From positions 124,001 through 188,000 of the forward strand of contig JAFGFE010000020.1 of NCBI GenBank assembly GCA_016931225.1: DNA of 64,000 nucleotides, in the 5' to 3' direction. Below are positions 7,149 to 35,394 of this stretch, piece after piece (position 1 is the stretch's first letter; each line of letters opens with the position of its first letter). This DNA is from Candidatus Zymogenaceae bacterium (GTDB lineage Bacteria > Desulfobacterota > Zymogenia > Zymogenales > Zymogenaceae). A model generated the notes under the pieces. That model was not told where the DNA came from and searched no databases. It was given only the letters and a program-made list of their open reading frames with translations. The translations under genes were made by a program, and so were the position numbers.

Positions 7149-7258
7149 AAATATATTCCCTTCCTTCCTCAAAAACACAGCATCTCATATACGGAGACTA
7201 TACTACATAGCAGTAATAGGAACAATATTCAAGCGTATAATACCGGACGGAAAACATG

Positions 7259-7290: not shown

Positions 7291-7321
7291 CATATCGGCG
7301 TTATACACATATCTCTGGTGC

Positions 7322-14341: not shown

Positions 14342-14376
14342 CTGGCAACTCCTCAAACTTCACCGACAGCAATCGA

Positions 14377-15003
14377 CTATTCTTCGGGCCGATGCATCAC
14401 AAACCGACACATCGCATCGCCGGTGGCAATGCAGTGGGTTTCCTCCACCTTGATTCCCCGACCGGTCACCCACCGGGCGATGCCGAACTGGAATCCAAGC
14501 TGGGCATGACAAATCGGCTTTTCGGCCTTCACACCAATACACCAGTGACACGGCGCTATTTCCAGCACCACACCCTCATCCACGTCATAATAGGTAAAGA
14601 TGTCACCTTGGATCACCCGTGACGCCTCCACCATGATACCGTAAATTCTTCGAAACTCCTGGAACGCCTCTTCGACATTCCGCTCTTTTGGGGTGATGCC
14701 GTCGATGTTGAAGAGCTCGGGGAACTGCTCGTTCATTATCTCGAATCCTTTAATGCCGCCCCGAAACATGATCGGGCGCACCCCCTGCTCTCCCATCACA
14801 TCAATAAATCCCCGCATCAGAGCCGAAAAATCTCCGGAGGGATGCTCTTCCTCCATATTATTCGGAGGAAAGTTGTCCCTGAACTTGGTCATACCGCTGT
14901 AATTGAGAATCGCGTTCAGGCCCGATTTGCCCAGGATCTCCTCGGCTGTTGCCAGAATCATGTAATACAGCTGGTTTGGAAATTTTTCCTTCATGTGTCC
15001 CAT
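14377..15003 (-). CDS. V4R-domain protein (4-vinyl reductase / BchJ-like domain)
   Basis: 208 aa, soluble. The C-terminal half carries the V4R signature: CHWCIG, then GFQFGIARWVTGRGIKVEETHC, ending in IATGDAMCRFVMHR (about res 185-203). V4R domains occur in BchJ and in regulators of aromatic degradation, and are thought to bind small hydrophobic ligands; there is no chlorophyll pathway nearby. The N-terminal half has no recognised motif. GAGG lies nine bases before the ATG. It sits 63 bp after the amidohydrolase gene and 35 bp before the D-aminoacylase gene, so it may sense or bind their substrate. Confidence 0.7.
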   Translation of the reverse strand: MGHMKEKFPNQLYYMILATAEEILGKSGLNAILNYSGMTKFRDNFPPNNMEEEHPSGDFSALMRGFIDVMGEQGVRPIMFRGGIKGFEIMNEQFPELFNIDGITPKERNVEEAFQEFRRIYGIMVEASRVIQGDIFTYYDVDEGVVLEIAPCHWCIGVKAEKPICHAQLGFQFGIARWVTGRGIKVEETHCIATGDAMCRFVMHRPEE

Positions 15004-15066
15004 GTCGAATTACCTCGTTTCATTGATCACGTAAGTTCCCATGTTTTTACATGAAGTCTAAAAAGA

Positions 15067-16892: not shown

Positions 16893-18182
16893 TTAATATT
16901 GCCCTTCTCCCGGGATTGTTTTTGTCGGTTCCGGGATGACCGAATCGGCGGAAGGTGTATCGCCGCTTTCCATTCGTGGGGGATCGTCCGTGGTCGATGA
17001 GACCGCACCGCCGGCATCCGTATCCGAGTCTTCCCCCCCGGGCGGCGTCTCGGAATCGGGGGCCCCGCTGGGTATATTGGGGAAACCCGGCCCGACTGCC
17101 GGCGCCGGCAGCGTGCCCGGAGACGTTTCGATCATCAACTCCGACGGGGCGATCGGCCCGTCGTTCTTCGATCGGTCTTCGTTTCCGCTTCCCCCGGCGA
17201 GGTGCGCCACCACATATGATACCAGAAAGATAAATACAAGGCTCAATACACCCACCGCCGTCATAAGGATGGTGCGAATATTGATATTTTCAGGCCCCCG
17301 CCGCACATGTTCCCCATCCTTTTCTTCGGTGGTGATGATTTTTTCCGTAATCGGACCGGTCCGGGGCAGGGCAAGGGCGAGGGTCCTGTTTCTTTTAAAC
17401 CTGCCGAACTGGACGGCGACGGCGGTGATATTATCGTGCCCCTCCCGGAAATTCGCCAGATCCACCAGCCGTTCGCACGCCTTCTGGACGCTTCGCTCTC
17501 CGTGAAACGCCCCCAGGATCTCCTCCTCGCCGACCAGGTCCCATAGCCCGTCGGAGCAGAGAAACAGCACGTCACCGTCCTGGAGAAACAGCTCGACCGG
17601 CTCATCCACCGTCACCGGCTCCCCCGCACCGAGAGAGCGCAAAATGATATTTTTCTGGGGGAAGTCCTTCGCCTCCTCGGGCGTGAGCTTCCCCTCCCGG
17701 ACGAGTTTTCCCACAAAGGAATGGTCCTCGGTAACCGGTACGATCTCGTCGTTTCTGAGGTGATAGGCCCGGCTGTCTCCCACATGCCCGATGTACGCCC
17801 GATTCCCGACGACAAACACCCCGGTGAACGTGGTTCCCGGAGGCTTATCGCCACCGCCCCCCGCCTCTCGGACCCGCTCGTCCGCCGCCCGGACGACCCC
17901 GGCCACGGCTTCCGGTACGGTCTCTCCCAGCGTCTCCAGGCGGGAGTACCCGGACGGACGCATTGCGTCCATGACGGTCCTGACAGCCGTCCTGCTGGCC
18001 ACATCTCCCCCCACATGCCCCCCCATACCGTCGGCAACCACCAGGACCGCCCGGACTCCGAGGCTACCGCGATCTTCTTCATTGATGGTCATGGCCACGA
18101 AGCTGTCTTCATTCTTCTCACGCACCCGACCGACATCGGTCTTGCCGCCCAGGGTGATTTTCAATTCATCTCCAGGTCCCAT
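16893..18182 (-). CDS. PP2C-type Ser/Thr phosphatase with C-terminal transmembrane segment
   Basis: 429 aa, longer than Stp/PrpC phosphatases (about 250 aa). The PP2C domain covers about res 5-255 with all metal-binding motifs: GRVREKNEDS, VADGMGGHVGGDVAS, GHVGDSRAYHL, TEDHSFVGKL, CSDGLWDLV and GHDNITAVAV. After it come a span (TILMTAVGVLSLVFIFLVSYVVAHL, about 305-330) and an exported, Pro/Gly/Ser-rich disordered tail. It should reverse the action of the Ser/Thr kinases encoded directly upstream. AGGGATCAATT precedes the ATG. It is the last gene of the eleven-gene signalling block. Confidence 0.92.
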   Translation of the reverse strand: MGPGDELKITLGGKTDVGRVREKNEDSFVAMTINEEDRGSLGVRAVLVVADGMGGHVGGDVASRTAVRTVMDAMRPSGYSRLETLGETVPEAVAGVVRAADERVREAGGGGDKPPGTTFTGVFVVGNRAYIGHVGDSRAYHLRNDEIVPVTEDHSFVGKLVREGKLTPEEAKDFPQKNIILRSLGAGEPVTVDEPVELFLQDGDVLFLCSDGLWDLVGEEEILGAFHGERSVQKACERLVDLANFREGHDNITAVAVQFGRFKRNRTLALALPRTGPITEKIITTEEKDGEHVRRGPENINIRTILMTAVGVLSLVFIFLVSYVVAHLAGGSGNEDRSKNDGPIAPSELMIETSPGTLPAPAVGPGFPNIPSGAPDSETPPGGEDSDTDAGGAVSSTTDDPPRMESGDTPSADSVIPEPTKTIPGEGQY

Positions 18183-18264
18183 AATTGATCCCTGTTACGT
18201 TTCTGATATGGTCCAGTTTGCACCTTCTCATCTCTTTGCCGGAGGTGGAGAGCGATGGTATTAT

Positions 18265-20331
18265 CTATTCATAGGAGCCCAAATATAGATCCCCGGATCC
18301 ATCCAGTCCAAACGTGTAGACATAGATATAATACTCGTCGCTCTGATATTCCCACTCGTTGTAGTGGTAATCATAGGAATAATAAGTGTAGGTCAGCTCA
18401 TCGATCAGTTCCAGAATTCCGTTTCCGTCTCGATCTTCGAAATATATATAGTGATCCGCATTATACGCCCAGTCGCTGGGGGCGCCCAGTTGGTCCTCCC
18501 CAAAGACGGTATACACGGTATTGACATACCCCCCTTTCAGGGCGAACAGGTAGTAGGCAACACCGCCGAAGCCCGAGGAGTAATTGCTGACATATGCCTC
18601 CAGCTCATCCACTCCATCATTGTTGACGTCGACTGTATTTATCTCGCAGTAGTCGCCTTCAATGACAAGGAGTTCTTTGTGCCATCCACCGTCACAGGTG
18701 ATGAGCCACACCTCGGAGACCTCACTGACGTTGGATTGGTTGTAATCCTCAAAGGACACGATCGCCTCTCGCCTGTTCGGGGCGGTGAACGAGCCCTCAA
18801 AGTAATAGACATTCATCAGGTCGTAACTCGCCCCCTCTTCATTCGCTGTGGAGGCGAACACCGATCTGATGATCGATTCGTCGAGATAATCATCACAGCC
18901 GGAGCCGAACAATCTTCCGCCGGACATCGGGGAACCTCCCCCGGGAGCACCGCCGCCGGTGACCTTCGGGATGATTGTATGCTTCATCACCCAGAAACCG
19001 ATGGAACCGAGGAGAAACACAAACACAGCCGCAAGCACGCCCACGAAAATGAAGAGTATTTTTCTTCTTTGATCCGTTTGTTCGACGGGGAAGGGCACAT
19101 GACCTGAAAGCGCCGCATCCGGTGCGATATCCCCTTCTTCGGCGGGGGTAAAGGCCTCCTTCCCGTCCGCCCCAGACGGGACGCCGGCCTCATCGGGAAC
19201 GGTTGCCTCCAGAGGAGCCTCCGGTTCCTCTTGTGTGGGCGCCGCCCCGGCCTCTCTCCCTTTTTTCTCCCTCTCACCCTCCGGTTCCACGGAAGCCGCC
19301 CCCAGCGTTCCCTCCAGCCCCGCCCGGATATCCCGGGCGAGATCGCTCGCCGTCGGGTAGCGCCCGGCCGGATCCTCGGCCATTGCCCGGGCGATGACGA
19401 GGTCCACCCAGGGCGGGAGGGATCGATTGATCTCCGTGGGCGGGATGGGCACCTCCTTGAACTTCTTGTACATCACCTCCTGGGTGGTAGCGCCGGGAAA
19501 CGGGGAGCTGCCCGTGATGAGGGTATAAAACGTGGCGGCCAGGGCGTAGATATCGCTTTTTTCGTCCACATCGCCCCCCTTGAACTGCTCCGGGCTCATG
19601 TACTCCACGGTCCCCATCGACATACCGGTGGAGGTCATTCGCTCCTCCCATACCGCCCGAGCGATGCCAAAGTCCGTAATGACCGCCCTGCCGGTGGTAT
19701 CCAGAATAATGTTCGCGGGCTTGATATCCCGATGAATCACGCCCCGCTCATGGGCATGGGCAAGCCCCCCGGCGATCTGGAGGACGATGGCCGAAGCGTC
19801 ATCAACGGAGAGCGGCCCCCGCTCCACGAGCTGGTCCAGGTCCTCGCCCTCCACATATTTCATGGAAAAATAGTAGGAGCCGTTATCCTCACCCACCTCG
19901 TAAATGGTAACGATGTTTGGGTGATCCAGGGTGGCGGCGTTCTTCGCCTCCCGCATGAAGCGCTGAACGAATCGATCCTTCCGGGAAAGGTTGGGGAGCA
20001 ACACCTTCAGCGCCACAATCCGATCCAGGGTGGCCTGCCTGGCCTTGTAGACGATCCCCATGCCCCCCTCGCCCAGCTCGCTGATCAACTCATAATTACC
20101 GATGGATCCGGATGCAACCGTTTCATCCCGGGATGTGCCGCCGCTTTTGGGCTTCAGGCTGACGGCCGTGTGTGAGGCTTCCGACAATTCCGCTCTGAAA
20201 ACCGGTCGCTCTCCCGAGGGAGACGGGGAACCATCCCCGGACCGTCTTTGTGTGACGAGAACAAACACGATGGCGGCGCCCAGAAGGATGATCAATAGTA
20301 GAAAAAAAACAAGAATCATTATCGACATCAT
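18265..20331 (-). CDS. Transmembrane Ser/Thr protein kinase with C-terminal calcium-loop-like domain
   Basis: 688 aa. The protein begins with a span (IMILVFFLLLIILLGAAIVFVLV), then a kinase domain (about res 75-345) with GEGGMGIVYKA, VALKVLL, HRDIKPANIIL, ITDFGIAR and MSPEQF, so it is catalytically complete. A Glu/Pro-rich linker and a second span (FIFVGVLAAVFVFLLGSIGFWVM) follow. The C-terminal domain of about 210 aa is acidic and aromatic and contains two DxNxDGxxE-type loops (VDVNNDGVDEL and EDRDGNGILEL) like EF-hand or VCBS/FG-GAP calcium sites; it should lie outside the cytoplasm as a sensor. GGAGAG is close to the two adjacent ATGs; the exact start is uncertain by a codon. Confidence 0.88.
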   Translation of the reverse strand: MMSIMILVFFLLLIILLGAAIVFVLVTQRRSGDGSPSPSGERPVFRAELSEASHTAVSLKPKSGGTSRDETVASGSIGNYELISELGEGGMGIVYKARQATLDRIVALKVLLPNLSRKDRFVQRFMREAKNAATLDHPNIVTIYEVGEDNGSYYFSMKYVEGEDLDQLVERGPLSVDDASAIVLQIAGGLAHAHERGVIHRDIKPANIILDTTGRAVITDFGIARAVWEERMTSTGMSMGTVEYMSPEQFKGGDVDEKSDIYALAATFYTLITGSSPFPGATTQEVMYKKFKEVPIPPTEINRSLPPWVDLVIARAMAEDPAGRYPTASDLARDIRAGLEGTLGAASVEPEGEREKKGREAGAAPTQEEPEAPLEATVPDEAGVPSGADGKEAFTPAEEGDIAPDAALSGHVPFPVEQTDQRRKILFIFVGVLAAVFVFLLGSIGFWVMKHTIIPKVTGGGAPGGGSPMSGGRLFGSGCDDYLDESIIRSVFASTANEEGASYDLMNVYYFEGSFTAPNRREAIVSFEDYNQSNVSEVSEVWLITCDGGWHKELLVIEGDYCEINTVDVNNDGVDELEAYVSNYSSGFGGVAYYLFALKGGYVNTVYTVFGEDQLGAPSDWAYNADHYIYFEDRDGNGILELIDELTYTYYSYDYHYNEWEYQSDEYYIYVYTFGLDGSGDLYLGSYE

Positions 20332-20420
20332 ACTCTCTCCACACTTCACGATGAAGTATCTGTATGCATCACTTGGTAAAAACTCTCGTCCTCACCTCTT
20401 TTCCCCTCGACGTTCCCCGA

Positions 20421-21614
20421 TTATGGAACAATGGTCACCTTTGTTCCGATATCCACCGCCCGCCTGACCTTGTCGATATTTATGGGATTGAGCCGAATAC
20501 AGCCGTGGGTGGCGGGAGCGCCGATCAGGTATTCCTCGTTGGTGCCGTGGATGCCGATGCCGGTCCAGGGGGGGGTCACAAGCCGGATGAACCAGGGACC
20601 GTAGGCCAGTTCGTCTTCATACCGCCAGCCCGACGCATCATGAATATTCTCGACGGTGAATTCCCCCTCCGGTGTGCGGCAGTCCCCCACCCGTTCCTTA
20701 TCCTGGAGGTCCGGATTCGACCCGATGGAGACTGGAAACTCACAGACCGTCTCATTTGCGCTGTTTCTGACCTCCAGGATGTATTTACTCTTATCAATAA
20801 CGATCGAATACTCCTCCCCCTCGGTCGGCTCCCACGACGGCAACTTCTTCCAGTCCTCCCCCGCGTAATCCGGGGCCAGCACCACGAAATAATCCGAAAG
20901 CCCCGCCACCATCCGCACGGAACCCATCCCCACGATCGTCACAAGCTCACCGGCCCGCCCGCCGCCGCCCATCGGATAATAGACGATCGTCGTCTCTTCC
21001 ATCCCCTTATTGACGGAAACCGGCGTATAGACGCCCTCCCCGTCATCCGCAGCGGCCAGGACCGATGAAAGCACCACCGCAGGTGATACCTCGTTTTCCG
21101 CGCCGGTGGCGTCCAGGATATAGACCACGGGCTCCCGGGGCGTCGTCGAGATCAGGCGGGCCACGGCGTCTGCCCCCAGAATAACCTTCAAAAGCCCGGG
21201 GGTCAGGGTATCGTCCTCTATAAGCGTGCCCGTTCCCACGGCCCGGCGAAGGCTTTCCGCAGCGGCCTCGTCGCCGGGGTAATAGTGGATAAACGTCTCG
21301 AATCGATAGATCGGTAGAAAAAGCTCGCTCTTGACGGCGAATCCCGCGTCGGTCACGGCCCGTCTTCCCGCGGCCAATAGGTCTATCCCCAGCTTTTCCG
21401 TATACGCGCCGCAGGCGTTCTTAATGACCACATCGCCCCCCGGTCCGACCGCCGGCTCAAGGAGGGTTGAATCGCTCCCGCTCCCCGCCCGGGGCGGCTG
21501 CTGGCCCTGGGCCATCACCGTTCCCGACACGATACACAGCACCGCAAGACAAACGAAAAAGAGAGTCGCTCTCTTAATAAGTAACGATACGTTCCGTACC
21601 GATATATCCCTCAT
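20421..21614 (-). CDS. L,D-transpeptidase (YkuD) with LytR_C-like N-terminal domains
   Basis: 397 aa. Signal peptide ATLFFVCLAVLCIVSGTVMAQG. Two segments, about res 55-130 (VVIKNACGAYTEKLGIDLL to RFETFIHYYPG) and about 170-255 (TTIVYYPMGGGG to YFVVLAP), look like LytR_C/GerMN-type modules. A YkuD domain fills the last 140 aa, with GIGIHGTNEEY and the catalytic THGCIRL near the C-terminus. YkuD enzymes form 3-3 cross-links in peptidoglycan or attach proteins to it. GGGAGA lies seven bases before the chosen ATG. It lies between two transmembrane kinases, suggesting that cross-linking is controlled by or reported to them. Confidence 0.85.
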   Translation of the reverse strand: MRDISVRNVSLLIKRATLFFVCLAVLCIVSGTVMAQGQQPPRAGSGSDSTLLEPAVGPGGDVVIKNACGAYTEKLGIDLLAAGRRAVTDAGFAVKSELFLPIYRFETFIHYYPGDEAAAESLRRAVGTGTLIEDDTLTPGLLKVILGADAVARLISTTPREPVVYILDATGAENEVSPAVVLSSVLAAADDGEGVYTPVSVNKGMEETTIVYYPMGGGGRAGELVTIVGMGSVRMVAGLSDYFVVLAPDYAGEDWKKLPSWEPTEGEEYSIVIDKSKYILEVRNSANETVCEFPVSIGSNPDLQDKERVGDCRTPEGEFTVENIHDASGWRYEDELAYGPWFIRLVTPPWTGIGIHGTNEEYLIGAPATHGCIRLNPINIDKVRRAVDIGTKVTIVP

Positions 21615-21673
21615 GTGTTGTTCTCCCTGAATAGTGTTAATCGCCGCCGCGGTGCCGCGTTTCCCCGACACCA

Positions 21674-23227
21674 TCAGTAGATTCCGACGTAATCATCGAT
21701 CACCCATCCGATCAGACCCGACGGTGTCTCCACCTGGTACCAGTAATCGTCGATAAACAGTTTCACGTCGGCCTTGGGGACATACCCATAATACCCCGTG
21801 CCGTCCACGTCGAACCGAATTCGATAGTTCCGGCCGTCCTCCCCGACGACCGTCACGGCATACCCCCCGCTCAACGTCATGCCGCCGCCGTGCTCCAGGG
21901 ATATCGTGGTGTCCGACCAGAGTTTTCCCTCCGATGTATTCCCGGCGAGACTCTCATCCAGAACGGTCACGGAATCCCCCGAATCAAGCTGGGTGATTTT
22001 ATCGTAGCCAACCCCCGGGCCGGACCTGATGTTCACGTTATCCCCGGTGATAACGCCGTAGCGCACCGACGGCTCGGGAGTCGGCGCCGGGGCGGGGGCG
22101 GGAGCCGGTGCCGATGGGGTGTGCGCCGGTGACGGAGACTCCATCGTCGGTGGTGCCATCGCCGGCGCCGTCGTCCCCCCTTCCGGGATCATCCCGGGGG
22201 TGGGTTGCGTTCTCCCCGTAAGCGCCTTGACGGCGAACAGAGCCGTGACGGCCAGACCCAGAGCGATGCACGCCGCCAGGACACCGACGATCACTTTTTT
22301 GAAAACCCTCAGAGATTTATTCACATCCTGAGCGGGTGCGGCCGGAGGGAGTTCGCCCGCCCCGTCATCCGCATGCGGCACCGCTTCCGCCACGAGCGCA
22401 CCCACAGCCTGCGGGGACGTCACCTCCCGATGCTCGAGGGCTTCGATAAACTCCCGGGCCGATTGTATCCTCTCCGTCCGATCCTCCCGCATTGCGGCGC
22501 CCACGACATGGTCCGTCCATTCGGGGAGTGCAGTGTTCACTTGTGTCGGCGGTACGAGCGCACCCTCAAATTTCTGATACATCACCTCCTGGGTGGTCTT
22601 TCCCGGAAACGGGGAACTGCCGGTGAGCACATGATACAGGGTTGCTCCCAGGGCGTATACATCGCTCTCCGGTCCCGGCTCCTCTCCGCGAAACTGCTCC
22701 GGGCTCATATACTCCACCGTCCCCATTGATATGCCGGCGTCCGTCAGGCGCTCCTCCCACGCGGCCCTGGCGATGCCGAAATCGGTGATCACCGCCCGTC
22801 CGGTCTCGTCCACTATGATATTCGCGGGCTTGATATCCCGGTGGATGACGCCTTTTTCATGGGCGTGGGCCAGCCCCTGTGCCACCTGCCGGATGATGTC
22901 TACGGCCTGTTCTATCGGTATCGGTCCCCGGGAGAGCTCATCCTCCAGGTCTCCCCCCTCCATGTATTTCATGGAAAAAAAGTAGGTCCCCTCATCCTCC
23001 CCTACCTCGTAGATCGTCACGATATTCGGGTGATCCAGGGTCGCGGCGTTTTTTGCCTCCCTCAAAAACCGCTCCACAAAGCGTTCGCGGGCGGACAGAT
23101 GGGGAAGAAGCACCTTGAGGGCGACGATCCTGTCCAGACCCGCCTGTTTAGCCCGATAGACGATCCCCATTCCCCCCTCGCCGATTTCCTCGACGAGATG
23201 ATAATTGCCGATTACTGTCTTTCCCAC
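21674..23227 (-). CDS. Transmembrane Ser/Thr protein kinase with C-terminal SH3b domains
   Basis: 517 aa. Kinase domain about res 8-265: GEGGMGIVYRA, IVALKVLL, HRDIKPANIIVD, ITDFGIARA, MSPEQF. A span follows (VIVGVLAACIALGLAVTALFAV, about 308-330), then a Pro/Ala repeat linker. The exported tail has a bacterial SH3 module (VITGDNVNIRSGPGVGYDKITQLDSGDSV) and a terminal SH3-like piece (WYQVETPSGLIGWVIDDYVGIY). SH3b domains bind cell-wall peptides, so wall sensing is likely. The start is a GTG with a strong GGAGGAGG upstream. The kinase half closely resembles that of 18265-20331, with identical runs such as REAKNAATLDHPNIVTIYEV. Confidence 0.92.
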   Translation of the reverse strand: MGKTVIGNYHLVEEIGEGGMGIVYRAKQAGLDRIVALKVLLPHLSARERFVERFLREAKNAATLDHPNIVTIYEVGEDEGTYFFSMKYMEGGDLEDELSRGPIPIEQAVDIIRQVAQGLAHAHEKGVIHRDIKPANIIVDETGRAVITDFGIARAAWEERLTDAGISMGTVEYMSPEQFRGEEPGPESDVYALGATLYHVLTGSSPFPGKTTQEVMYQKFEGALVPPTQVNTALPEWTDHVVGAAMREDRTERIQSAREFIEALEHREVTSPQAVGALVAEAVPHADDGAGELPPAAPAQDVNKSLRVFKKVIVGVLAACIALGLAVTALFAVKALTGRTQPTPGMIPEGGTTAPAMAPPTMESPSPAHTPSAPAPAPAPAPTPEPSVRYGVITGDNVNIRSGPGVGYDKITQLDSGDSVTVLDESLAGNTSEGKLWSDTTISLEHGGGMTLSGGYAVTVVGEDGRNYRIRFDVDGTGYYGYVPKADVKLFIDDYWYQVETPSGLIGWVIDDYVGIY

Positions 23228-23325
23228 AACACACCTCCTCCCGATGAAACCTTCCGTACAGCCGCATCGCCGATGCTTTCACCATACTCCGGTTTTAAAA
23301 CACGGGATCGTCTCCGTCCGTGTTT

Positions 23326-24492
23326 TTACCTTCTCTTTCTCACAGTCCTGGTGATGAGCACGAGGAGAATCACCACAATCAGCACAGCCCCCACCGCCAG
23401 GAGCGCGATGAACGCATTTTTCCATCCCTCCTCGATCCGTTTTTTCTCCTGGTACTCCATAATCAGGCCCGTGGCCGGCGGGGGATTGGTGGATGCGAGG
23501 AAATCTCTGGATCCGCTGATCTCCTCCCCCCGATACGTTAGGGAAACCGCCAGTGTATGGATAAGGACCACCCGATCCGGCCGCTCCGGGAATGGAGAGG
23601 TAAAAGAGAGGCGGAAGAGCGAATGGAGTTGTTCGGATATCAGCTCGTATACGTCATTCAGATCTCCCGGCGTGGGGGCGTAAAAGAACCGTCCGCCGGT
23701 CTCCGAGGCGATGCCGTCCAGGACCGTCGTGTTGATCTGGTTGCCCAGCCCCACGGTAATGACCATCGCTCGGGCTTCGTTGGCGGCCGTCACGGCGTCC
23801 ATCTCCGTGGCGGTGCTGTTCGCCTTATCGTTTCTGCCGTCGGTCAGGACCACCACGACCCGGCGCCCTTCCGTAACGTCTAAAAGAAGCTTCGAGGAGT
23901 CGATAACGGCCTGGTAGAGGGCCGTATCCCCCTTGTATTCCAGACTCCGGATGACATCGATGACTTCGTCGTGATCATCGGTCAGCGGCACATTCACATA
24001 GACGTTGTGATCGAAGGTCACCAATCCCACCGTATCCTGCGGCTCAAGAAGCTCTACAAAGACTTCCGCCGCCTCCTTCGCCCTGGCCAGCGGGGTGCCC
24101 GCCATGCTGCCGGAGATATCGATGGCAAGCACAACCGTCAGCGGGTCCCGCACCGGATCGGTGGGCACAAGCTCCAGGTTTTCCGCGGGAGTGTCCTCTT
24201 CGAGAACCGTAAGGTCTTCAATGTTCAAAATGTCGACGGGACGCCCCTCCTGATCGGTGATGGAAAGGTAGAGCGAGATGGTGGGATATTCGGAAAGATC
24301 GAAGTCGGAAAAGGTGATGACGCCGGCATCTTTTCCGAACAGCCAGGACATATCGTCGGTCGTGGTGGTTGTCTCATCACCCGTCGGTGGCGTCTCTTCC
24401 GGGGTATCCTGGGCCTGAACCCAGGCACCGACCGTAAAAACCACCACACAGACGATACCTATGCCGATACGATGTATTTTTTTTAAAATCAT
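23326..24492 (-). CDS. Exported VWA-domain protein with C-terminal membrane anchor
   Basis: 388 aa. Signal peptide IGIGIVCVVVFTVGAWVQAQ, a Thr-rich linker, a beta-rich region (YPTISLYLSITDQEGRPVD), then a von Willebrand A domain at about res 120-300 with an intact MIDAS: DISGS, the Thr in KGDTAL, and LTDGRND. A C-terminal span (AFIALLAVGAVLIVVILLVLI, about 360-381) ends in RTVRKRR, so the VWA domain lies outside the membrane. VWA domains bind protein partners through a metal ion. It is placed between two kinase genes, so it may act as an envelope adaptor. GAGGAATCC precedes the ATG. Confidence 0.87.
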   Translation of the reverse strand: MILKKIHRIGIGIVCVVVFTVGAWVQAQDTPEETPPTGDETTTTTDDMSWLFGKDAGVITFSDFDLSEYPTISLYLSITDQEGRPVDILNIEDLTVLEEDTPAENLELVPTDPVRDPLTVVLAIDISGSMAGTPLARAKEAAEVFVELLEPQDTVGLVTFDHNVYVNVPLTDDHDEVIDVIRSLEYKGDTALYQAVIDSSKLLLDVTEGRRVVVVLTDGRNDKANSTATEMDAVTAANEARAMVITVGLGNQINTTVLDGIASETGGRFFYAPTPGDLNDVYELISEQLHSLFRLSFTSPFPERPDRVVLIHTLAVSLTYRGEEISGSRDFLASTNPPPATGLIMEYQEKKRIEEGWKNAFIALLAVGAVLIVVILLVLITRTVRKRR

Positions 24493-24584
24493 GGATTCCT
24501 CACACTCATTGATACTATACGATATAATTCCACGCCCGCGCCCCTCATCCGATCGTTCGGATCTGGGCGCGGCGTTTTTTTATC

Positions 24585-27266
24585 CTACCAGATCGCGTAA
24601 AGATACCCGTCGTCACTGCCGAAAAAGATCACCGGCTTCGATACCGTCACGACCTCTCCCCCGGCGGACACGCCGTCTTCCCCCCCCTCCTCCGGGGATA
24701 CGGTATCGGCGGGTGCTTCGGCCTCATCGATGTCCTCATCCGGGGCATTCCCCGATTCCACCGTGATATCCAGTCTGACGACGACGGGGGATGAATCCAC
24801 CTCCCCCCCGGTATCGAAGCGAAACAACAGCCCGCCCGTGGCGGCGTCGAGGGCGTAGAGGGAATGATCCCGGCTTCCCACGTAGACGACCCCCTCAACC
24901 GGCGCCTTTCCGTCGTAGGTATCATCCATGCCGGTCCACTCGATGTGCCCCAGGGGGGCGACCTCGCCCGCGGAAAACAACATCGCCTCCCCCGCCGGCG
25001 AATTCGGGGAGTCGGATTCTTCGCCTATTTCCACCCCGTCGGTCAGCACAAACGGGGTCGACCCCACCGCTGCGCCGGTCTTCACCCTCCAGTAGGCCGC
25101 CCCGGTTCGCGCATCGAGGGAGTATATATATCCATCGGCGCTGCCGACGTAGAGTGTTTCGCCGCTGATAGCGGGCGGGGAGAAAATCGATCCATTTGTC
25201 TTCCTGCGCCAGACCAGGGCGCCGGTTTCGGCGTCCAGGGCGTAGAGCATACCGCCGGCATCGCCCAGAAACACCCATCCCCCGTACGTGCTGGGGGCGG
25301 CGTACAGGGCGCTTCCCGCCTCGAACCGCCAGATATTCGTGCCGTAGGTGGCGTCCACCGCATAGAGGAAATGATCCAGGCTCACGACAAACAATGTGTC
25401 CCCCCAAATCGCCGCCTGTGCATAGATATCCCCACCCACATCGGAAATCCACAACTCCTCTCCGGTCAGGGCGTCCACAGCAGAGATCACCCCCTCGTCT
25501 CCGCCGATAATCACGGTGTCGTCCGCGGCCGCAGGCGCCGAGAAAATCCCGCCCGGGGTCCTGTATCTCCATATTCTATCTCCGCCGATCGCGCTCCAGG
25601 AAAAAAGGAGGCCGTTGTATTCACCGGCGAGGACCATGTCTTTATAATACAGGGGAGAGGAGAGGATCTCCCCTCCGGAATCGGCACGCCACAGAACTTC
25701 GCCCGTCAGGACGTCCAGGGCATAGAGCCGGCCGTCGCCGGAGCCGATGAACACCACGGGCGACGCACCCCCGTCACCAACCGCCGGGGAGGTCCTCAGG
25801 GGGGCCGCCATGTTTCTTGCCCACAGTACCCCGTGGTCCCCCCTCTCCTCCCCATCGAAGGAAAAAACACTCACCGGCCCGATATCGGCCTTCAACGGCA
25901 CATCCTCCACCTTCGGAGAGACCGGTGTCTCCGCACCCGGATCCGCCACATCTTCGGTCACCCCCCCGTCTTCCGGCGGAGATACGACACCACCGCCGCC
26001 GCTCCCTCCGCCCCCCCCACCACCGGTGCGGGAGAACCCTCCCAGGTCGATATGCCGGGCGATACGCTCGATATCGAAGTATCCCGGGAGCACCAGGGTC
26101 TGAGTGGCAAGGAGCACCGTCGCCACTATCCCCGTAATGATAAGGACGAGCAGAACCGCCACCATGAGCGCCCGCCCCAGCCCCATGCCGCCGTACATGG
26201 TTACAGCGGGCGGGGACGGTATCGTCTCGACCCGGGCCGGGAGGACATCCACGGAGGGAACCCGGGGCGTCCGTGAAAAGAGACGCCTGAAAAAACCCCC
26301 GTCTCCCACCTGATCACTCGACAGCGCCCGCCTCCCCACCGCCTTATACATCGCCTTGTGGAGCTCTTCGGCGCTCTGGTACCGGTCGGTGCGGTTTTTC
26401 GCCATGCCCTTTTTGACCACCAACTCCGCCCGCCTGTCTATATCGGGGCGCAGCCTTTCTATCGGCTCCGCCTCACCGTCCAGTATGGCCGCAATGGTGG
26501 AGACCGCCCCCTGGGATTCTCCACCCTCCTCCCTCCGAAAGGGTGAGATGCCGGTGAGCATTTGATACATCACCACCCCCAGAGAGTAGATATCGGTGCG
26601 CCCGTCCAGTTCCCTGCCCCTCACCTGTTCAAGGCTCATGTATTCGGGAGTGCCCATGGTGGTGCCGGGGGTGGTCTGCCCCTTGACGCCCATCGCCTTG
26701 GCGATTCCGAAATCGGTGATGACGACCGAGCCGTTCATGTCGGTATCGGTGAACATGATGTTGCCCGGCTTGATGTCTCGATGAATGATGCCCTGTCCAT
26801 GGGCGTAGTCAAGGGCGTCGGCCACCTGGGCCGCAATGCGGAAGGATTCAACCACCGACAGCGTTCGTCGCTTCCTGATGAGGTCGGACAGATCCCCGCC
26901 GGGGAGATAGTCCATGACGATGTAGCAGGTATCCCGGACCATGCCGGTATCCCGCACCTGGACGATATTCGGGTGGTCAAGCGAGCCGGCCAGCCTCGCC
27001 TCGTTTTCAAAGCGGGTCAGGAATTTTTCATCCCGGGCCAGGGTGGGGTGAAGTATCTTGATAGCCACCGCCTCATCTGTTGCGAGGTCTACGCCCAGAT
27101 AGACCGAACCCATCCCCCCTTCCCCCAGACGCTCATCGACCCGAAAACGATCGACGATCAGGGTTCCGATAAAAAGGTCACCCCCGTGACCAAGGCGCTC
27201 GCCGCATTCGAGGCAAAAGCGTGCCGATTCAGGATTATCATACCCACAGCGGGAGCAGAGTGCCAT
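24585..27266 (-). CDS. Zinc-ribbon Ser/Thr protein kinase with PQQ-type beta-propeller sensor
   Basis: 893 aa. It starts with a zinc ribbon (CSRCGYDNPESARFCLECG, res 4-22), then a complete kinase domain (about 35-300: GEGGMGSVYLG, VAIKILHP, HRDIKPGNIMF, ITDFGIAKA). A span (ALMVAVLLVLIITGIVATVLLA) and a glycine-rich linker lead to an exported domain of about 400 aa made of repeated blades with the PQQ/BamB pattern GxLYALDAxTGxxxW: LYALDVLTGEVLW, ISAVDALTGEELW, LYALDAETGALVW, IYSLDARTGAAYW, LYALDAATGGLLF and the closing GSDDGYLYAIW. Seven or eight blades seem likely. The FHA gene ends 13 bp upstream and is almost certainly coupled to it. Confidence 0.92.
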   Translation of the reverse strand: MALCSRCGYDNPESARFCLECGERLGHGGDLFIGTLIVDRFRVDERLGEGGMGSVYLGVDLATDEAVAIKILHPTLARDEKFLTRFENEARLAGSLDHPNIVQVRDTGMVRDTCYIVMDYLPGGDLSDLIRKRRTLSVVESFRIAAQVADALDYAHGQGIIHRDIKPGNIMFTDTDMNGSVVITDFGIAKAMGVKGQTTPGTTMGTPEYMSLEQVRGRELDGRTDIYSLGVVMYQMLTGISPFRREEGGESQGAVSTIAAILDGEAEPIERLRPDIDRRAELVVKKGMAKNRTDRYQSAEELHKAMYKAVGRRALSSDQVGDGGFFRRLFSRTPRVPSVDVLPARVETIPSPPAVTMYGGMGLGRALMVAVLLVLIITGIVATVLLATQTLVLPGYFDIERIARHIDLGGFSRTGGGGGGGSGGGGVVSPPEDGGVTEDVADPGAETPVSPKVEDVPLKADIGPVSVFSFDGEERGDHGVLWARNMAAPLRTSPAVGDGGASPVVFIGSGDGRLYALDVLTGEVLWRADSGGEILSSPLYYKDMVLAGEYNGLLFSWSAIGGDRIWRYRTPGGIFSAPAAADDTVIIGGDEGVISAVDALTGEELWISDVGGDIYAQAAIWGDTLFVVSLDHFLYAVDATYGTNIWRFEAGSALYAAPSTYGGWVFLGDAGGMLYALDAETGALVWRRKTNGSIFSPPAISGETLYVGSADGYIYSLDARTGAAYWRVKTGAAVGSTPFVLTDGVEIGEESDSPNSPAGEAMLFSAGEVAPLGHIEWTGMDDTYDGKAPVEGVVYVGSRDHSLYALDAATGGLLFRFDTGGEVDSSPVVVRLDITVESGNAPDEDIDEAEAPADTVSPEEGGEDGVSAGGEVVTVSKPVIFFGSDDGYLYAIW

Positions 27267-27279
27267 GAATTTTCCCCGT

Positions 27280-27978
27280 TCAGAAAAAATCCGCTACACA
27301 CCCCATAATGTATCGGGACACGACACATTCCGGGAAGTTCCGGGTGAGAAGAAACAGCCCCAGAACAAGCGATATCGGCGCCCAGATCCACAGGACGGAA
27401 AGAAGCCTGCGGCCGACCACGACCGCCCGCCTTTTACGCGAAAGCAGCGACGCCTGAATGGAGCTTATAATATGAACGATCAGGCCGATGATCCACAGAG
27501 GCAGAACGGCGTAGAGAACGAAGATGGCAAGACCCCGGAGCTTGTAACTCCTGTAGATGTTTCGGTAGATGGATGTCGCGGGCTCAGGCATGACCGGTCG
27601 GGACCCGCCGGCCCCTTTGCCCTGTGCCCTCGATCTCTCGGCTCGAGACGGGATCCCTCCCGGCGGCGTCCTGATATCGGCGATCACCTTGCTGAGCACC
27701 GTGATGCTCTCCCCCCAGAACTCCACAATATCTCCGCCGACAATGTTCCGGGAGTCGTTTTTTACCAGCTCCCCGTTAATGAATGTTCCATTGGAGCTGG
27801 TGTCATGATAATCAAGATGCGCGCCGTTGACCTTGAAAAATCCGTGATCCCGAGATATCCTCGCCCCCTTCAGGACGATATCGCTTCTTTTCCGCCTTCC
27901 GACGGTGATGAGGGGACGTGAAGTTTCAAATCGTTTCGTGCCGCCGTCAAGACCGATAATAAGAAATACCTGTTTCAT
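27280..27978 (-). CDS. FHA-domain membrane protein
   Basis: 232 aa from the ATG at MKQVFLII; the open frame continues upstream without a credible start. The N-terminal FHA domain has the canonical phosphothreonine-binding residues: VGRRKRSDI (Arg), RISRDHGFF (Ser and His) and TSSNGTFING (Ser, Asn). After a linker with Pro and Arg come two spans (LRGLAIFVLYAVLPLWIIGLIVHII and WIWAPISLVLGLFLL). It should bind phospho-threonine marks on the inner face of the membrane. It lies 13 bp before the zinc-ribbon kinase gene, whose autophosphorylated form is the obvious candidate ligand. Confidence 0.87.
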   Translation of the reverse strand: MKQVFLIIGLDGGTKRFETSRPLITVGRRKRSDIVLKGARISRDHGFFKVNGAHLDYHDTSSNGTFINGELVKNDSRNIVGGDIVEFWGESITVLSKVIADIRTPPGGIPSRAERSRAQGKGAGGSRPVMPEPATSIYRNIYRSYKLRGLAIFVLYAVLPLWIIGLIVHIISSIQASLLSRKRRAVVVGRRLLSVLWIWAPISLVLGLFLLTRNFPECVVSRYIMGCVADFF

Positions 27979-28148
27979 GATTCCATTCCATATCCAGTAT
28001 GTATAGAAGCGATGAACGCCGGACAAAAAAGAGATGCAACGTATCGAGAAACCGGTGGAGAATCTATGATGCCCCTGATGATAGCATACGATCAGGCCGC
28101 AGGCAACCGACAAGTCGTCCGGACGGCGAGAAACGAGTACGGTGCCCC

Positions 28149-29282
28149 CTATAGATCTTCATGGAGTCTCCCGTACGCCGTTCCCAGCACCTCCCAGACC
28201 AGATCGGGATTGTCGCTTTGCAGGTTCATGGGCGCGCCTCCCCGAAAACTCCACGCGGCGATGTTTTTTATCCCCAGGTCCGCAACGATCGATATCGCGT
28301 CGGAAATCTCCTGTTCCCTACCCGCCGGCACCCGGTAGGCCTGCACCCATATCTGGGGTGTCTTTCCGTACTCGGCGGACACACCGATCACCTTCTCGGT
28401 GGTGGAGGCGACGAACTCTCTCACGGGTTGTCTGAAGGCGTACCAGTAGGGATCGCTGCCGAAGATATCCACCGTGTCGATGGCGGCGATGAGATCCCAT
28501 GACGATACGCCGGTGAGGTGGCTTTCCTGGGGAAGCATCACCACGGCGTTCTTCAAACCCGCCGCGCCCCCCCGGGCCGATGCATTGGTAAAAAAGTCCA
28601 CGATGGATCGATCCCGAAAGGCGACAACCTCATCCGTCATCAGCTCAGGCATCTCCTCCCCGTATTGAATTCGAAACAGCTCCCGGCACCGGTCGCATCT
28701 GCAGGCCCATTCATTTTCTCCCTGTTCTCCCCGCCACACGGCCCTGGGGATGTAAAAATGCGGCTCGTCCCAGAAAAGCACGTCGGCGCCGGTCTCCACA
28801 GCTGTGTCGATCCAGCCGTCCATGAATTCCCGAAAGGTCGGCCGATTGATACATGCAGCGGGAAGCGGCGTGCCGTCGGCCAGCCGCTGGGTTTCCCCCG
28901 GGTGCTCCATGACAAATCGTGAAAACGCCTCGCCCCCGAACACGCCCCCCACACCCCAGGGATCGATATAGACGGTGAGCCCTGCGTCTTTGGAGATGCG
29001 CACCACCTCCCGCATGGCCTCGGAATAGAAGTGATAATCCGCCTCGGAGAAGGTGTGCACAACATACGTGCAGTGATGCCGGATGATATCCTCCATATCC
29101 CTTTTTACGTGTTCGGGGTCCCGGCTTCCGAAATAACTCACCCCGGTCTCAAAACCGCGGCCCTCCGCCCCCCGGGCAACCGCACCGTGAAACAGCCCCA
29201 CCGATCCCGACCCCAGGGCGAGAAGCGCCGCCCCGGACCCTGTCAGGAAACGCCGCCGACTGATATACTTCATGGATGACAT
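28149..29282 (-). CDS. Tat-exported putative TIM-barrel glycoside-hydrolase-like protein
   Basis: 377 aa. A twin-arginine signal is clear (ISRRRFLTGSGAALLALGSG). The mature protein looks like a TIM barrel: FETGVSYFGSRDPE near the start, GLTVYIDPWGVGG, DVLFWDEPHFYIP (acidic residue at a strand end, as for a glycosidase catalytic residue) and DIFGSDPYWY. A cysteine group ACRCDRCRELF follows the DEPHF strand and may bind metal. I do not know a characterised family with this layout; glycosidase activity is an inference. GGAGGG five bases before the ATG sets the start. It lies in the middle of the kinase/cell-wall block. Confidence 0.6.
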   Translation of the reverse strand: MSSMKYISRRRFLTGSGAALLALGSGSVGLFHGAVARGAEGRGFETGVSYFGSRDPEHVKRDMEDIIRHHCTYVVHTFSEADYHFYSEAMREVVRISKDAGLTVYIDPWGVGGVFGGEAFSRFVMEHPGETQRLADGTPLPAACINRPTFREFMDGWIDTAVETGADVLFWDEPHFYIPRAVWRGEQGENEWACRCDRCRELFRIQYGEEMPELMTDEVVAFRDRSIVDFFTNASARGGAAGLKNAVVMLPQESHLTGVSSWDLIAAIDTVDIFGSDPYWYAFRQPVREFVASTTEKVIGVSAEYGKTPQIWVQAYRVPAGREQEISDAISIVADLGIKNIAAWSFRGGAPMNLQSDNPDLVWEVLGTAYGRLHEDL

Positions 29283-29345
29283 ACAGACCCTCCGCCGTCA
29301 CGTTTCATCATATCATCTCTCTTTCTGCACCCATCGTCAGTAAGT

Positions 29346-29999
29346 TCATTCATCAAAAAAGGGATACGCCCCTGAGAGCGTATCCCTGCTAACCGAGATA
29401 ATAACCGGCGTCCCCACATCCACCATGTGGTAGAGCAGGATTGCGTCTTTTGCCGTGAGCTTGATACACCCCGCAGACCTGGTCGGCTTTCCGTCGACGA
29501 GCCTGGTGGTCCCGTGGATCTCGATGCAGTCGCCGGTGTATCCCCGGGCGACATCCTCTTCATTCGGATAATCAAGCCCCATGATCGTGGCGTCCTCCCC
29601 GCCGTAGGCATCTGTCCAGAGCCGTTCCTCATTCCGTCCCTCGGGGCCGTAGACGAGTCCCGTCTCGTCGCACCAGGTCATCCCCTCGATGACGGGGCTT
29701 CCCTTGTCGGTGTGTCCCCGGTTCACCTCCACCGACGCCATCCACGCGATGTGATATTCCCCCACCGGGGTTTTTCCGTCCCCCTCCCGGGTCTTTCCCA
29801 TGCCGCCGTAACCGGTCTCGCAGGGGAACGAGGCGATTAATTCGGCGCCTTCGTACACCAGGAACGCCTTTTCCGCGTCGATGACGAACACGACACGGTC
29901 ATCGAAAGCCCGAACATCATCGCCCCCGAAGGATACACCCGCCATAAAACAGATACACAGCGCCGCCAGGCTGAGAGCCGCTCTCTTGATATGTTCCAT
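29346..29999 (-). CDS. L,D-transpeptidase (YkuD family)
   Basis: 217 aa. Signal peptide AALSLAALCICFMAGVSFGG. The YkuD domain starts with VVFVIDAEKAFLVYEG, continues with the GDGKTPVGEYHI substrate-groove motif, and ends with CIEIHGTTRL and the catalytic SAGCIKL (Cys near res 186). It lacks the extra modules of the transpeptidase at 20421-21614. It probably makes 3-3 cross-links or anchors proteins to the wall. The ATG overlaps the TGA of the gene upstream (TGATG), so translation is coupled; a GTG one codon earlier is the alternative start. Confidence 0.9.
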   Translation of the reverse strand: MEHIKRAALSLAALCICFMAGVSFGGDDVRAFDDRVVFVIDAEKAFLVYEGAELIASFPCETGYGGMGKTREGDGKTPVGEYHIAWMASVEVNRGHTDKGSPVIEGMTWCDETGLVYGPEGRNEERLWTDAYGGEDATIMGLDYPNEEDVARGYTGDCIEIHGTTRLVDGKPTRSAGCIKLTAKDAILLYHMVDVGTPVIISVSRDTLSGAYPFFDE

Positions 30000-30568
30000 C
30001 ACTCCAGGATGTCGATATAGTCGTAATTTTCAATGATCAGCCAGCGCCCGTTGCTCTGGAGCTCCATAATGTACAGCTCCTCGGCGGCCTCGGAAAAGCT
30101 CGTGCCGTCCTTTTTATAAAACGTCATGGTGTATCGGGTGGCGACGTACGCCCGGTTTTCGTACTTGATCTCATTACTGAGCATTTCCCAATAGACATCG
30201 ACCCGCCTGTACGTGGCGAAATCCTTCTTGCGCTTGTTGGAAATGGCGGTATAGTTTCTCCTCGTCCCGTCCATGAAGATCTGAAGGGCGTCGACCGACC
30301 AGGCGCTCATATACAGGTCGAAATCGAGCGTGCGCCATCCGTCGTATACCGCCAGGAGGGTCCGCTCGATCTCACTCCTCTCGGACGGCGAGGGCGCTCT
30401 GCCGCCGAATGTGATCGCCACATCCCATCCATTGTCGATGAAGAGGGAATCACTCTCCGCAGCCGGAGTTGTATCTGCGGCAAATCCCACGCCGGAAAGC
30501 AGCAGAACCGATCCCAGTATCACCGTTCCGACGATTCGGACACACATCATTGTATGTTCTCTGTTCAT
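29999..30568 (-). CDS. Exported NTF2/SnoaL-like protein
   Basis: 189 aa from the ATG with CAGGAGCGATTGAT upstream. A signal peptide (IVGTVILGSVLLLSGVGFAAD) is followed by an alpha+beta domain with the features of NTF2-like folds: a leading helix (SERSEIERTLLAVYDGWRTLDFDLYMSAW), then strands YRRVDVYWEMLSNEIKYENRAYVATRYTMTFYKK and LYIMELQSNGRWLIIENYDYI. Such domains often bind small molecules or act as scaffolds outside the cell. Its stop overlaps the start of the L,D-transpeptidase gene, so the two products are likely to work together. Confidence 0.7.
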   Translation of the reverse strand: MNREHTMMCVRIVGTVILGSVLLLSGVGFAADTTPAAESDSLFIDNGWDVAITFGGRAPSPSERSEIERTLLAVYDGWRTLDFDLYMSAWSVDALQIFMDGTRRNYTAISNKRKKDFATYRRVDVYWEMLSNEIKYENRAYVATRYTMTFYKKDGTSFSEAAEELYIMELQSNGRWLIIENYDYIDILE

Positions 30569-30655
30569 ATCAATCGCTCCTGAAAATGACGTTTTTTCTC
30601 TTCCACGCTCTCGGGAACACACTCCCACCTCCGGCGCATCGATGTCCACCGTAGG

Positions 30656-30694
30656 AAAAAAAGGGACGCTCCGATCTTCGGTCGGGCGCCCCCT
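30656..30694 (-). terminator. Terminator after the OB-fold/FHA gene
   Basis: On the minus strand a GC-rich imperfect stem (GGGGGCGCCCGACC to GGAGCGTCCC) is followed by TTTTTTT, 38 bp after the stop codon. This would separate the first gene of the signalling block from those that follow, at least in part. A T run also exists on the plus side. Confidence 0.7.
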
Positions 30695-30731
30695 TCGTAT
30701 TTTTTTATGGTATCGGGAACGGCTGCATCAC

Positions 30732-31634
30732 CTATCCCATGAAACTGAATTTCACTTTGACGGTGCCCAGGAGGATTTCGTCCCCTTCGGCCAGCTCATG
30801 CTCTTCTTCGATGGCGTTACCGTTGACCTTGACCGGATTTGTGAGACTGACGTTTGAGAGAAAGTAGGTGCCCCGATCGTAGGTAATACGGCCATGTTCC
30901 CCGGAAACACCCCGGTCATCGGAAAAGAGGATGTTCCCCTTGTCCCGACCGATGGTGTTTTCGGCCGCCAGGAGGATCTGCTCTCCCTTTTTCGTGCCGG
31001 TGAGGACCTCCAACTGGGCCGGTTTCGACGGAACCTTTTCGGTTTTCGCACGCCCCTTTCCGGCGATGGCGGAGGCCTCTGTGTCGCTGATCTTTTCGGT
31101 GCGGGGACGGGTCCTGGCGGTGGCGGCTCGGGTGGCGTCGGTGGCGACGGTGGAGGGAATCGGCCCCGCGGTCACCGGCTTCGCCGCCGGAGCCTTCTGG
31201 GGACGGGTCAGGATGATGACCAGGACGATGATGAGAAGCAGCACTATCACACCCGCGATAATGGCGTACATCACGAAATTACCCCCGGCGGATCCGGTAT
31301 CCATCTCCCTGACGTAGGGCATCTGGGTATTCGGGTCCACTTGAACCAGCCCCTCAACAACGATCTTGTCTCCGGGTGCGGGGGGATCGAAGGTGTAGAT
31401 AACGATACGTTCGAAGCTGTCATCCACCAACACGTAGGAGCCCGGTGTGGTGGGACCCGCCGGGTTGGAGCTTTCCACCCTTCCCTCGAGTCTGACGGTC
31501 TTGTTGATGTATCGTGAAGGATTGATCAGAATATCACTCACAAATGCCTTTTCCGCGGCGATAGCTCCCAGAGAAAGAATAAGTACGAGGGCCGCAGCAC
31601 AAAATAAAATTTTTGTCGTTGACAAGCGCATCAT
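30732..31634 (-). CDS. OB-fold / transmembrane / FHA-domain protein
   Basis: 300 aa in three parts. An N-terminal signal (KILFCAAALVLILSLGAIAAE) precedes an exported domain with OB-fold-like pattern (INKTVRLEGRVESSNP, SYVLVDDSFERIVIY, GDKIVVEGLVQVD). A span (FVMYAIIAGVIVLLLIIVLVIIL, about 120-142) crosses to the cytoplasm, where a linker with several Thr/Arg repeats leads to a C-terminal FHA domain: IGRDKGNILF (Arg), GVSGEHGRI (Ser and His), NPVKVNGNAI. An Asn-Gly loop is present though SxNG is altered. It thus links an outside ligand-binding domain with an inside phosphothreonine reader. AAGGAGG precedes the paired ATGs. Confidence 0.82.
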   Translation of the reverse strand: MMRLSTTKILFCAAALVLILSLGAIAAEKAFVSDILINPSRYINKTVRLEGRVESSNPAGPTTPGSYVLVDDSFERIVIYTFDPPAPGDKIVVEGLVQVDPNTQMPYVREMDTGSAGGNFVMYAIIAGVIVLLLIIVLVIILTRPQKAPAAKPVTAGPIPSTVATDATRAATARTRPRTEKISDTEASAIAGKGRAKTEKVPSKPAQLEVLTGTKKGEQILLAAENTIGRDKGNILFSDDRGVSGEHGRITYDRGTYFLSNVSLTNPVKVNGNAIEEEHELAEGDEILLGTVKVKFSFMG

Positions 31635-34483: not shown

Positions 34484-34748
34484 GATACTATCTCCTGTAT
34501 ATGGTGAAGCACTGGCATCCATATGGGGAGAATCGGTAGGAGAACTGTGCTGGTATGGGTATATATGCCTCCCGTTTTTGGGGATATTGCGGGGAACGGG
34601 GCGGTTCGCGGTGCGGTTTCGACGATCATGATACTCTCATGGCAACGACGACGGAGACGGATGCGCTTGATTCCGACGGATTCTCCATCGGACGGCCGAA
34701 GTAACGCCCGAAGAAAAAGGAGGCGCATCAAAACGCGAAGGCATCCTC

Positions 34749-35234: not shown

Positions 35235-35343
35235 GGCACCGTCCACTGAGAAATAGTTTATATATTTTATAGTAACATATCAGTCCTGCCACTTCATTAA
35301 AAAAAGTTTTGGCGACTCAACACTTTTTGATAATACTCCATAT

Positions 35344-35369
35344 AAAAACAGGGCGGTTTCCCGCCCTGT
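35344..35369 (-). terminator. Terminator of the D-aminoacylase-like gene at 35395-37161
   Basis: Perfect 9-bp stem ACAGGGCGG / CCGCCCTGT with a short loop. On the minus strand it is followed by TTTTTAT. It lies 26 bp after the stop codon. Confidence 0.85.
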
Positions 35370-35394
35370 AATAATTAATAGGTTGTTCTTTTTC

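Follow-up and report, generated by a model that had tools for sequence, protein, structure and literature searches.

The type VI secretion system includes a phosphorylation arm in which PpkA, a kinase that spans the membrane and bears an extracellular VWA domain, works together with PppA and Fha1 (excerpts of PMC3224232 and PMC3953482). In actinobacteria, the pstP cluster is composed of pknA, pknB, pbpA, rodA, pstP, fhaB and fhaA (excerpt of PMC6554272). PASTA kinases, i.e., those of the PknB/Stk1 type, carry extracellular PASTA repeats. Here, we consider a row of eleven genes, referred to as the block, in a stretch of 64,000 nucleotides (the window) from Candidatus Zymogenaceae bacterium of the phylum Desulfobacterota (contig JAFGFE010000020.1, positions 124,001 to 188,000). 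A first-pass annotation, made from the sequence alone, described the block as an envelope-stress system in which several outside signals converge on one phosphatase and on FHA readers that control 3-3 cross-linking of the cell wall.

The genes for a kinase, a PP2C phosphatase, an FHA protein and an exported VWA protein form a conserved unit, referred to as the core, which recurs across five families. We give about an even chance to the reading that the block encodes a transmembrane (TM) Ser/Thr phosphorylation module, clustered with exported wall enzymes in this lineage. The listing of open reading frames (ORFs) and the Pfam scan bear out the inventory of the first-pass annotation, i.e., eleven same-strand genes with three TM kinases, one PP2C, two FHA proteins, one VWA protein, two YkuD proteins and one NTF2-like protein, in a row that runs from position 31634 down to 16893:

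30732..31634, minus strand: membrane FHA protein with an exported N-terminal beta domain, one TM segment, a Thr-rich linker and a cytoplasmic FHA domain (E 7.3e-12)
29999..30649, likelier start 30568, minus strand: exported NTF2-like protein (DUF4440, E 1.1e-5)
29346..30002, minus strand: short exported YkuD protein (YkuD E 2.8e-18, catalytic motif)
28149..29282, minus strand: protein exported by twin-arginine translocation (Tat; motif read in the sequence), the "TIM barrel" of the first-pass annotation
27280..28113, likelier start ~27978, minus strand: FHA protein with two C-terminal TM segments (FHA E 1.6e-11)
24585..27266, minus strand: kinase 1, zinc ribbon, kinase domain, TM segment and exported PQQ-type propeller (Pfam, hydropathy scan)
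23326..24492, minus strand: exported VWA protein with a C-terminal TM segment and an intact DxSxS (Pfam VWA E 2.4e-22)
21674..23227, minus strand: kinase 2, kinase domain, TM segment and exported SH3b (SH3_3) domain (Pfam)
20421..21674, likelier start 21614, minus strand: long exported YkuD protein, a LytR_C-like part followed by YkuD (Pfam)
18265..20349, likelier start 20331, minus strand: kinase 3, TM segment, kinase domain, TM segment and exported domain (Pfam, hydropathy scan)
16893..18182, minus strand: PP2C phosphatase with one TM segment and an outside tail (Pfam, hydropathy scan)

The recurrence of the core was followed with a model of the VWA protein, made from a seven-row alignment whose rows were picked by similarity to the window's VWA protein alone. 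It was used to search 297 genomes of the phylum, and 46 VWA loci, fetched best-scoring first and not from all rows, were scanned with small hidden Markov models (HMMs). All 13 rows with a score of at least 281 bits (12 without the window) adjoin genes for a Ser/Thr kinase (STK), PP2C or FHA protein, and all three kinds are found beside the VWA gene in eight of them; three of the other five are located on short contigs of 10.0, 3.2 and 3.4 kb (G003:C42, G005 and G085, respectively, where G stands for genome and C for contig, as L and f do for locus and family below). The 13 rows span the families f1, f3, f11, f31 and f51. Among the lower-scoring loci such neighbors were seen at only 3 of 34 (G261, G195 and G235) and were missing at 31, which in comparison with the top 12 of 12 yields a Fisher p of 1.2e-8, to be taken as a guide only because the loci share ancestry. 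Each of the three distant loci holds more than one PP2C match, and they may be a different system. In a search with a PP2C alignment, 12 rows scored at least 331 bits before the scores dropped to 267; eleven of the 12 adjoin STK, VWA or FHA genes and one adjoins a YkuD gene on a 4.3-kb contig. The TM-type PP2C rows of the phylum sit in core loci. Relatives of the upstream FHA protein (30732..31634) were found in seven of the 297 genomes, including that of the window, six of them in core loci with kinase genes and one, G002:C72, at a contig edge. Searches anchored in VWA, PP2C and FHA all lead to core loci, in support of the earlier view that the signaling genes are a conserved unit.

The three Pkinase domains of the block match Pfam with E-values of 7.5e-52, 4.7e-53 and 2.3e-52, and a pattern search identified VA[IL]K, HRDIKP and DFG in all three. 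TM segments are predicted from a hydropathy scan in the three kinases, the PP2C, the VWA protein and both FHA proteins. The kinases, described earlier as three with distinct exported domains, are all complete in that their motifs are intact and their TM segments predicted. The Pfam scan also confirms that the block has no PASTA domain, and with the PASTA kinase model NF033483 (cut-off 450) the block kinases reach 311-347 bits. The zinc ribbon of kinase 1 comprises residues 4-24, N-terminal to the kinase domain. The outside part of kinase 3 was described as calcium-loop-like; DVNNDGVDE and DRDGNGILE can indeed be read in it, but no Pfam family matched there. In the phosphatase, the PP2C motifs DGMGG, GDSR, SDGL and HDN are all present. 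The VWA protein has an N-terminal signal-like segment in addition to its C-terminal TM segment, and it passes TIGR03436 with 84.8 bits (cut-off 81.25).

Only one of the two FHA proteins, both taken to be canonical in the first-pass annotation, matches the full pattern. This protein, at 27280..28113, carries GR..S..H..N and has a 32% homologue within the L040 core locus; its start at ~27978 is the first Met ahead of the domain, with no clear ribosome-binding site. In the upstream FHA protein the full pattern was not matched: GR, S, H and N are kept in the alignment, as judged by eye, but NPV replaces NGT. Hydrophobic segments are found at residues 9 and 124 of this protein. A model of its outside part had a predicted local distance difference test (pLDDT) score of 69 and gave mostly OB folds as top Foldseek matches (best E 0.083), which weakly suggests that the domain may be OB-like.

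A tree of 24 kinase domains places kinases 2 and 3 as sisters (support 95/80), next to the kinase of L118. According to this tree, kinase 3 is a duplicate of kinase 2 in which a domain that has no Pfam name has taken the place of the outside SH3b. In the group of kinase 1 the outside parts are a PQQ propeller (block, L119), WG repeats (L038) or several TM segments (L126, L120), where L119 and L038 harbor the closest same-family kinases. The kinase sensors thus appear to be exchangeable. In a different part of the host genome (L045 8491-10825, G000:C26) a zinc-ribbon kinase gene is followed by a separate gene for a PQQ-type lipoprotein, i.e., the propeller is detached. At a common locus with a ClpB-like protein (a label read from the sequence), found as L046 9964-12192 in G000:C19 and L126 8628-10274 in G002:C49, the kinase has one TM segment and a long outside part in the former and five TM segments in the latter. 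A wide search of named genomes with the PQQ kinase identified a single distant kinase, in Pseudanabaena.

Phospho-transfer, binding partners, the signal and the effect on the wall are what we infer. The core is composed of a kinase, an exported membrane-anchored VWA protein, one or more membrane FHA readers and PP2C. The outside domains, i.e., the propeller, SH3b, the kinase 3 domain and VWA, would read the state of the periplasm, and the kinase would phosphorylate itself as well as Thr-rich cytoplasmic parts, e.g., the linker of the FHA protein. Phosphorylated partners would be gathered at the membrane by the FHA domains, and the single PP2C would reset the system. The exported YkuD, NTF2-like and Tat proteins may be co-expressed outputs, or they may be what is sensed. 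Because these proteins are exported they are probably no targets of phosphorylation, and direct phospho-control is a less likely link to them than co-expression or the sensing of their products. The claim that kinases and FHA readers act directly on the wall enzymes is therefore hard to reconcile with the export signals of the YkuD proteins. The picture of several kinases facing one phosphatase stands. In the host genome, which comprises 3.73 Mb in 46 contigs and is 99% complete, Pkinase is matched six times (once marginally), with three of these matches in the block, and PF13672, the one phosphatase family searched for, is matched only by the PP2C of the block. FHA matches also number six; the block accounts for two of them, and three more lie at 55-57 kb of the window. 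Such a concentration of signaling genes in the block speaks against coincidence.

The attachment of the wall enzymes to the switch is seen only in the host's own family. The long YkuD protein is found in four of the 297 genomes, exactly the four of this family, each of which has a second, solo paralogue. The Tat protein is also found in four, all of the host's family, with a second paralogue in three. The 16 genomes that bear the core or belong to the family contain 30 matches to PF03734, spread over 13 genomes; only three of the 30, namely the two of the block and one in G002:C27, have a kinase match at a distance of 5 kb or less, and outside the host's family no YkuD match in this set is near a kinase match. 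A two-sequence YkuD HMM, which is insensitive, found none in the 46 fetched VWA loci.

Parts of the block recur on other contigs of the family. The gene order SH3b-kinase, long YkuD and PP2C is found in G002:C27 (L118), where the kinase is a 50% full-length homologue of kinase 2, and long YkuD is followed by PP2C in G003:C214 (L121), the contig of which starts at the YkuD gene. In G002:C84 (L124) a 57% identical orthologue of the short YkuD protein is encoded between the NTF2 and Tat genes. An FHA protein, NTF2 and Tat are found without YkuD in G003:C367 (L171), whereas G001:C27 (L128) holds NTF2, long YkuD and an exported protein whose sequence reads like WG repeats. The remaining two loci hold an upstream-type FHA gene, a PQQ-kinase gene and a PP2C gene (G001:C62, L119) and a Tat gene without the partners named here (G001:C72, L172). 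The block is thus composed of three joined modules: the core; SH3b-kinase, YkuD and PP2C; and NTF2, YkuD and Tat, sometimes without YkuD. Because these modules are separate at other loci, the window joins what is apart elsewhere. The flanking genes do not travel with them; across 14 such loci only 6 of the 38 window ORFs outside the block have matches, all weak (24-38% identity), and three of the six are the FHA genes at 55-57 kb.

The gene-neighborhood comparison proposed in the first-pass annotation thus has a divided outcome. The core recurs, as do the kinase-YkuD-PP2C and NTF2-YkuD links, but the full set of eleven genes was found at no other locus examined, and with the modules on different contigs in relatives the suggestion that the eleven genes are one unit does not hold. 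The link between kinase and YkuD genes is likewise seen at separate loci within the family, but not outside it, where no YkuD gene was found beside the core. These observations bear on the possibility of a chance assembly, i.e., that a true signaling core lies beside unrelated wall genes, on the same strand by accident and with no link between phosphorylation and YkuD. The lack of a second full set, the restriction of kinase-YkuD proximity to one family, the export of the wall enzymes and a terminator-like hairpin between the halves of the row are all consistent with this possibility. In contrast, YkuD adjoins kinase and PP2C genes at a different locus in G002 and a PP2C gene in G003, FHA adjoins the NTF2-Tat genes in G003 and NTF2 adjoins either YkuD type, for which reason we regard chance as somewhat unlikely.

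Several points weigh against a phosphorylation module that is tied to the wall enzymes. The genes, motifs, likely topology, core recurrence, family links, kinase duplication and sensor exchange are all results of computation, and the TM and signal calls come from a simple hydropathy scan and reading of the sequences. Some of the rows counted above, 7 of 13 for VWA and 5 of 12 for PP2C, had themselves gone into the search models, and the conservation counts are not independent events because related sequences share ancestry. No PP2C was found within ~10 kb of the core in G033, and no FHA gene was seen at that in G002:C54. In G001 the long YkuD gene does not adjoin a kinase gene. Several neighbors of the ClpB-locus kinase are common to the host genome (G000) and G002, some synteny being therefore background, and this may in part also explain why three genomes of one family show the YkuD link. 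The row may also be split into two transcripts. The gaps between its genes are at most 98 nucleotides, with two overlaps as called (~170 nucleotides with the later starts), and a terminator-like hairpin of 12 pairs with a loop of 4 and a T run lies at 29360..29387 (minus strand), where the coding sequence of the short YkuD protein ends. Promoter-like sites precede the first gene and the FHA gene at ~28.1 kb; two transcripts are therefore possible. A single terminator-like site is weak evidence because 26 such sites were found, compared to 14.3 expected in shuffles; promoter-like sites number 16, where 8.3 are expected.

In both YkuD proteins the domain scores 67-69 bits (cut-off 23.4) and the catalytic Cys motif HGT...GC[IV][RK]L was found by pattern search; export signals of the YkuD, NTF2-like and Tat proteins were identified by reading of the sequences. 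A search of solved structures gave no match for the short YkuD protein and five weak YkuD matches for the long one. Because the YkuD family covers carboxypeptidases and amidases as well as transpeptidases, the two proteins may have any of these activities, and 3-3 cross-linking is only one possible output. The NTF2-like gene overlaps the short YkuD gene by 4 nucleotides, and the NTF2-like protein of the first-pass annotation is substantiated by its DUF4440 match and also has an export signal. The gene pair raises the possibility of a shape or wall-trimming module, in which NTF2 and YkuD act like the L,D-carboxypeptidases Pgp2, Csd6 and Bd1075 and the kinases adjust their expression. The overlapping genes recur together, and the fused NTF2 domain of Pgp2 and Bd1075 is described as binding the wall or placing the enzyme (excerpts of PMC8038945 and PMC8938487). 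A search of the PDB, at the level of sequence only and with the short YkuD protein and an NTF2 profile, revealed no detectable relation to these three enzymes and, for the NTF2 profile, nothing useful; we consider this alternative to be unlikely.

The TIM-barrel label given to the Tat protein is unproven. This protein has no Pfam match, a single-sequence model with a mean pLDDT of 35 is worthless, and a two-sequence profile found only doubtful matches in the PDB, the best of which (E 7.7e-4) covers 74 residues in a protein annotated as hypothetical.

The flanks of the block (window 12656-16659 and 32561-37161, minus strand) encode a V4R protein, a corrinoid methyltransferase and amidohydrolases, of which two have Tat-like signals. 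In L174 and L175, tandem arrays of V4R genes are located close to paralogues of the Tat protein. At 55284-57880 (plus strand) three FHA paralogues are arranged in tandem, two of them with C-terminal TM segments; the arginine of GR is replaced (GG/GC), and the usual mode of phosphothreonine binding is probably not open to them. An FHA protein that resembles these paralogues is encoded upstream of the NTF2-Tat genes in L171 (6450-7271). The core in L083 (G213) comprises a TPR protein (a label read from the sequence), a kinase, a VWA protein with a TM segment and an FHA-like end, an FHA protein and PP2C, followed at 4835-7340 by a protein of the MotA/TolQ/ExbB family and two coiled-coil proteins. 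Around the core of L038 (159-15754, G002:C54) are six exported proteins that have a common N-terminal domain and differ in their C-terminal parts (two PQQ propellers, two WG-repeat proteins, TPR and PDZ). In L042 the gene for an FGE-sulfatase protein follows that for PP2C.

Two further explanations draw on systems with a similar set of domains. A TerY-P-like or other conflict (defense) module is suggested by the combination of VWA, PP2C and zinc-ribbon kinase, which is the TerY-P composition (excerpt of PMC11090510), and GAP1-N2 GTPase systems have been described with linked sets of a similar kind (excerpt of PMC7159879). The block VWA protein, with its signal-like segment, C-terminal anchor and TIGR03436 match, is unlike a cytoplasmic TerY-like VWA, and the zinc ribbon of kinase 1 is N-terminal instead of C-terminal. 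PADLOC matches only the kinases, through generic kinase models, and none of VWA, PP2C and FHA; the identified genes of the block and its near flanks include no nuclease or other effector. A defense role is thus very improbable. A relocated type VI phosphorylation arm (PpkA/PppA/Fha) that still serves a secretion machine shares four domain kinds with the block, including the extracytoplasmic VWA sensor domain of PpkA (excerpt of PMC3224232), but is disfavored as highly improbable since TssC (PF05943) is found in none of the 16 genomes with the core or of the host's family (the E. coli control was positive), VWA is a separate protein and the TagH/VI_FHA model gives at most 40 bits with a cut-off of 120.

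A broader and more tentative proposal than that of a phosphorylation module in this lineage is that a chassis composed of anchored VWA, membrane FHA, TM PP2C and kinases with exchangeable sensors may be a general envelope switch of Desulfobacterota, independent of type VI secretion, which in one family would be wired to YkuD wall enzymes. If so, the set of kinase, VWA, PP2C and FHA familiar from type VI secretion would be a more general transmembrane switch, present also in relatives of sulfate reducers without the type VI machine, and the block would be a case in which a tie between Ser/Thr phosphorylation and YkuD wall remodeling, by a route other than PASTA kinases, can be tested. No description of this gene combination was found in the open PMC literature, a scope that excludes subscription papers and offers no proof of absence.

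In comparison with known systems, the NTF2-YkuD pairing recalls Pgp2 and Bd1075, which with Csd6 have NTF2-like and YkuD parts that act in the periplasm; there the parts reside in one protein, whereas in the block they are two separate genes. The TerY-P triad has VWA, PP2C and a zinc-ribbon kinase in common with the block, which differs in its exported TIGR03436-type VWA protein, N-terminal ribbon, FHA readers and envelope neighbors. By genomic style the nearest system is the actinobacterial pstP cluster, which likewise groups wall genes with those for kinases, two FHA proteins and a single TM PP2C (excerpt of PMC6554272). The upstream FHA protein has FhaB as its best NCBIfam match (NF049868, 44.3 bits, below the cut-off of 125), and the block PP2C is a near miss for the PstP/Stp1 model NF033484 (213 bits, cut-off 230). 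Unlike this cluster, the block is without PASTA, penicillin-binding protein and RodA; it has YkuD proteins instead, and an exported VWA protein is added. By domain set the nearest known system is the type VI phosphorylation arm, a relation that was missed in the first-pass annotation. Both have a Ser/Thr kinase, a VWA domain outside the membrane, PP2C and an FHA reader, but in the block the VWA domain belongs to a separate anchored protein rather than being fused to the kinase, the FHA reader resides in the membrane and has a domain outside it, the kinase sensors are varied, and the core occurs in genomes in which TssC was not found.

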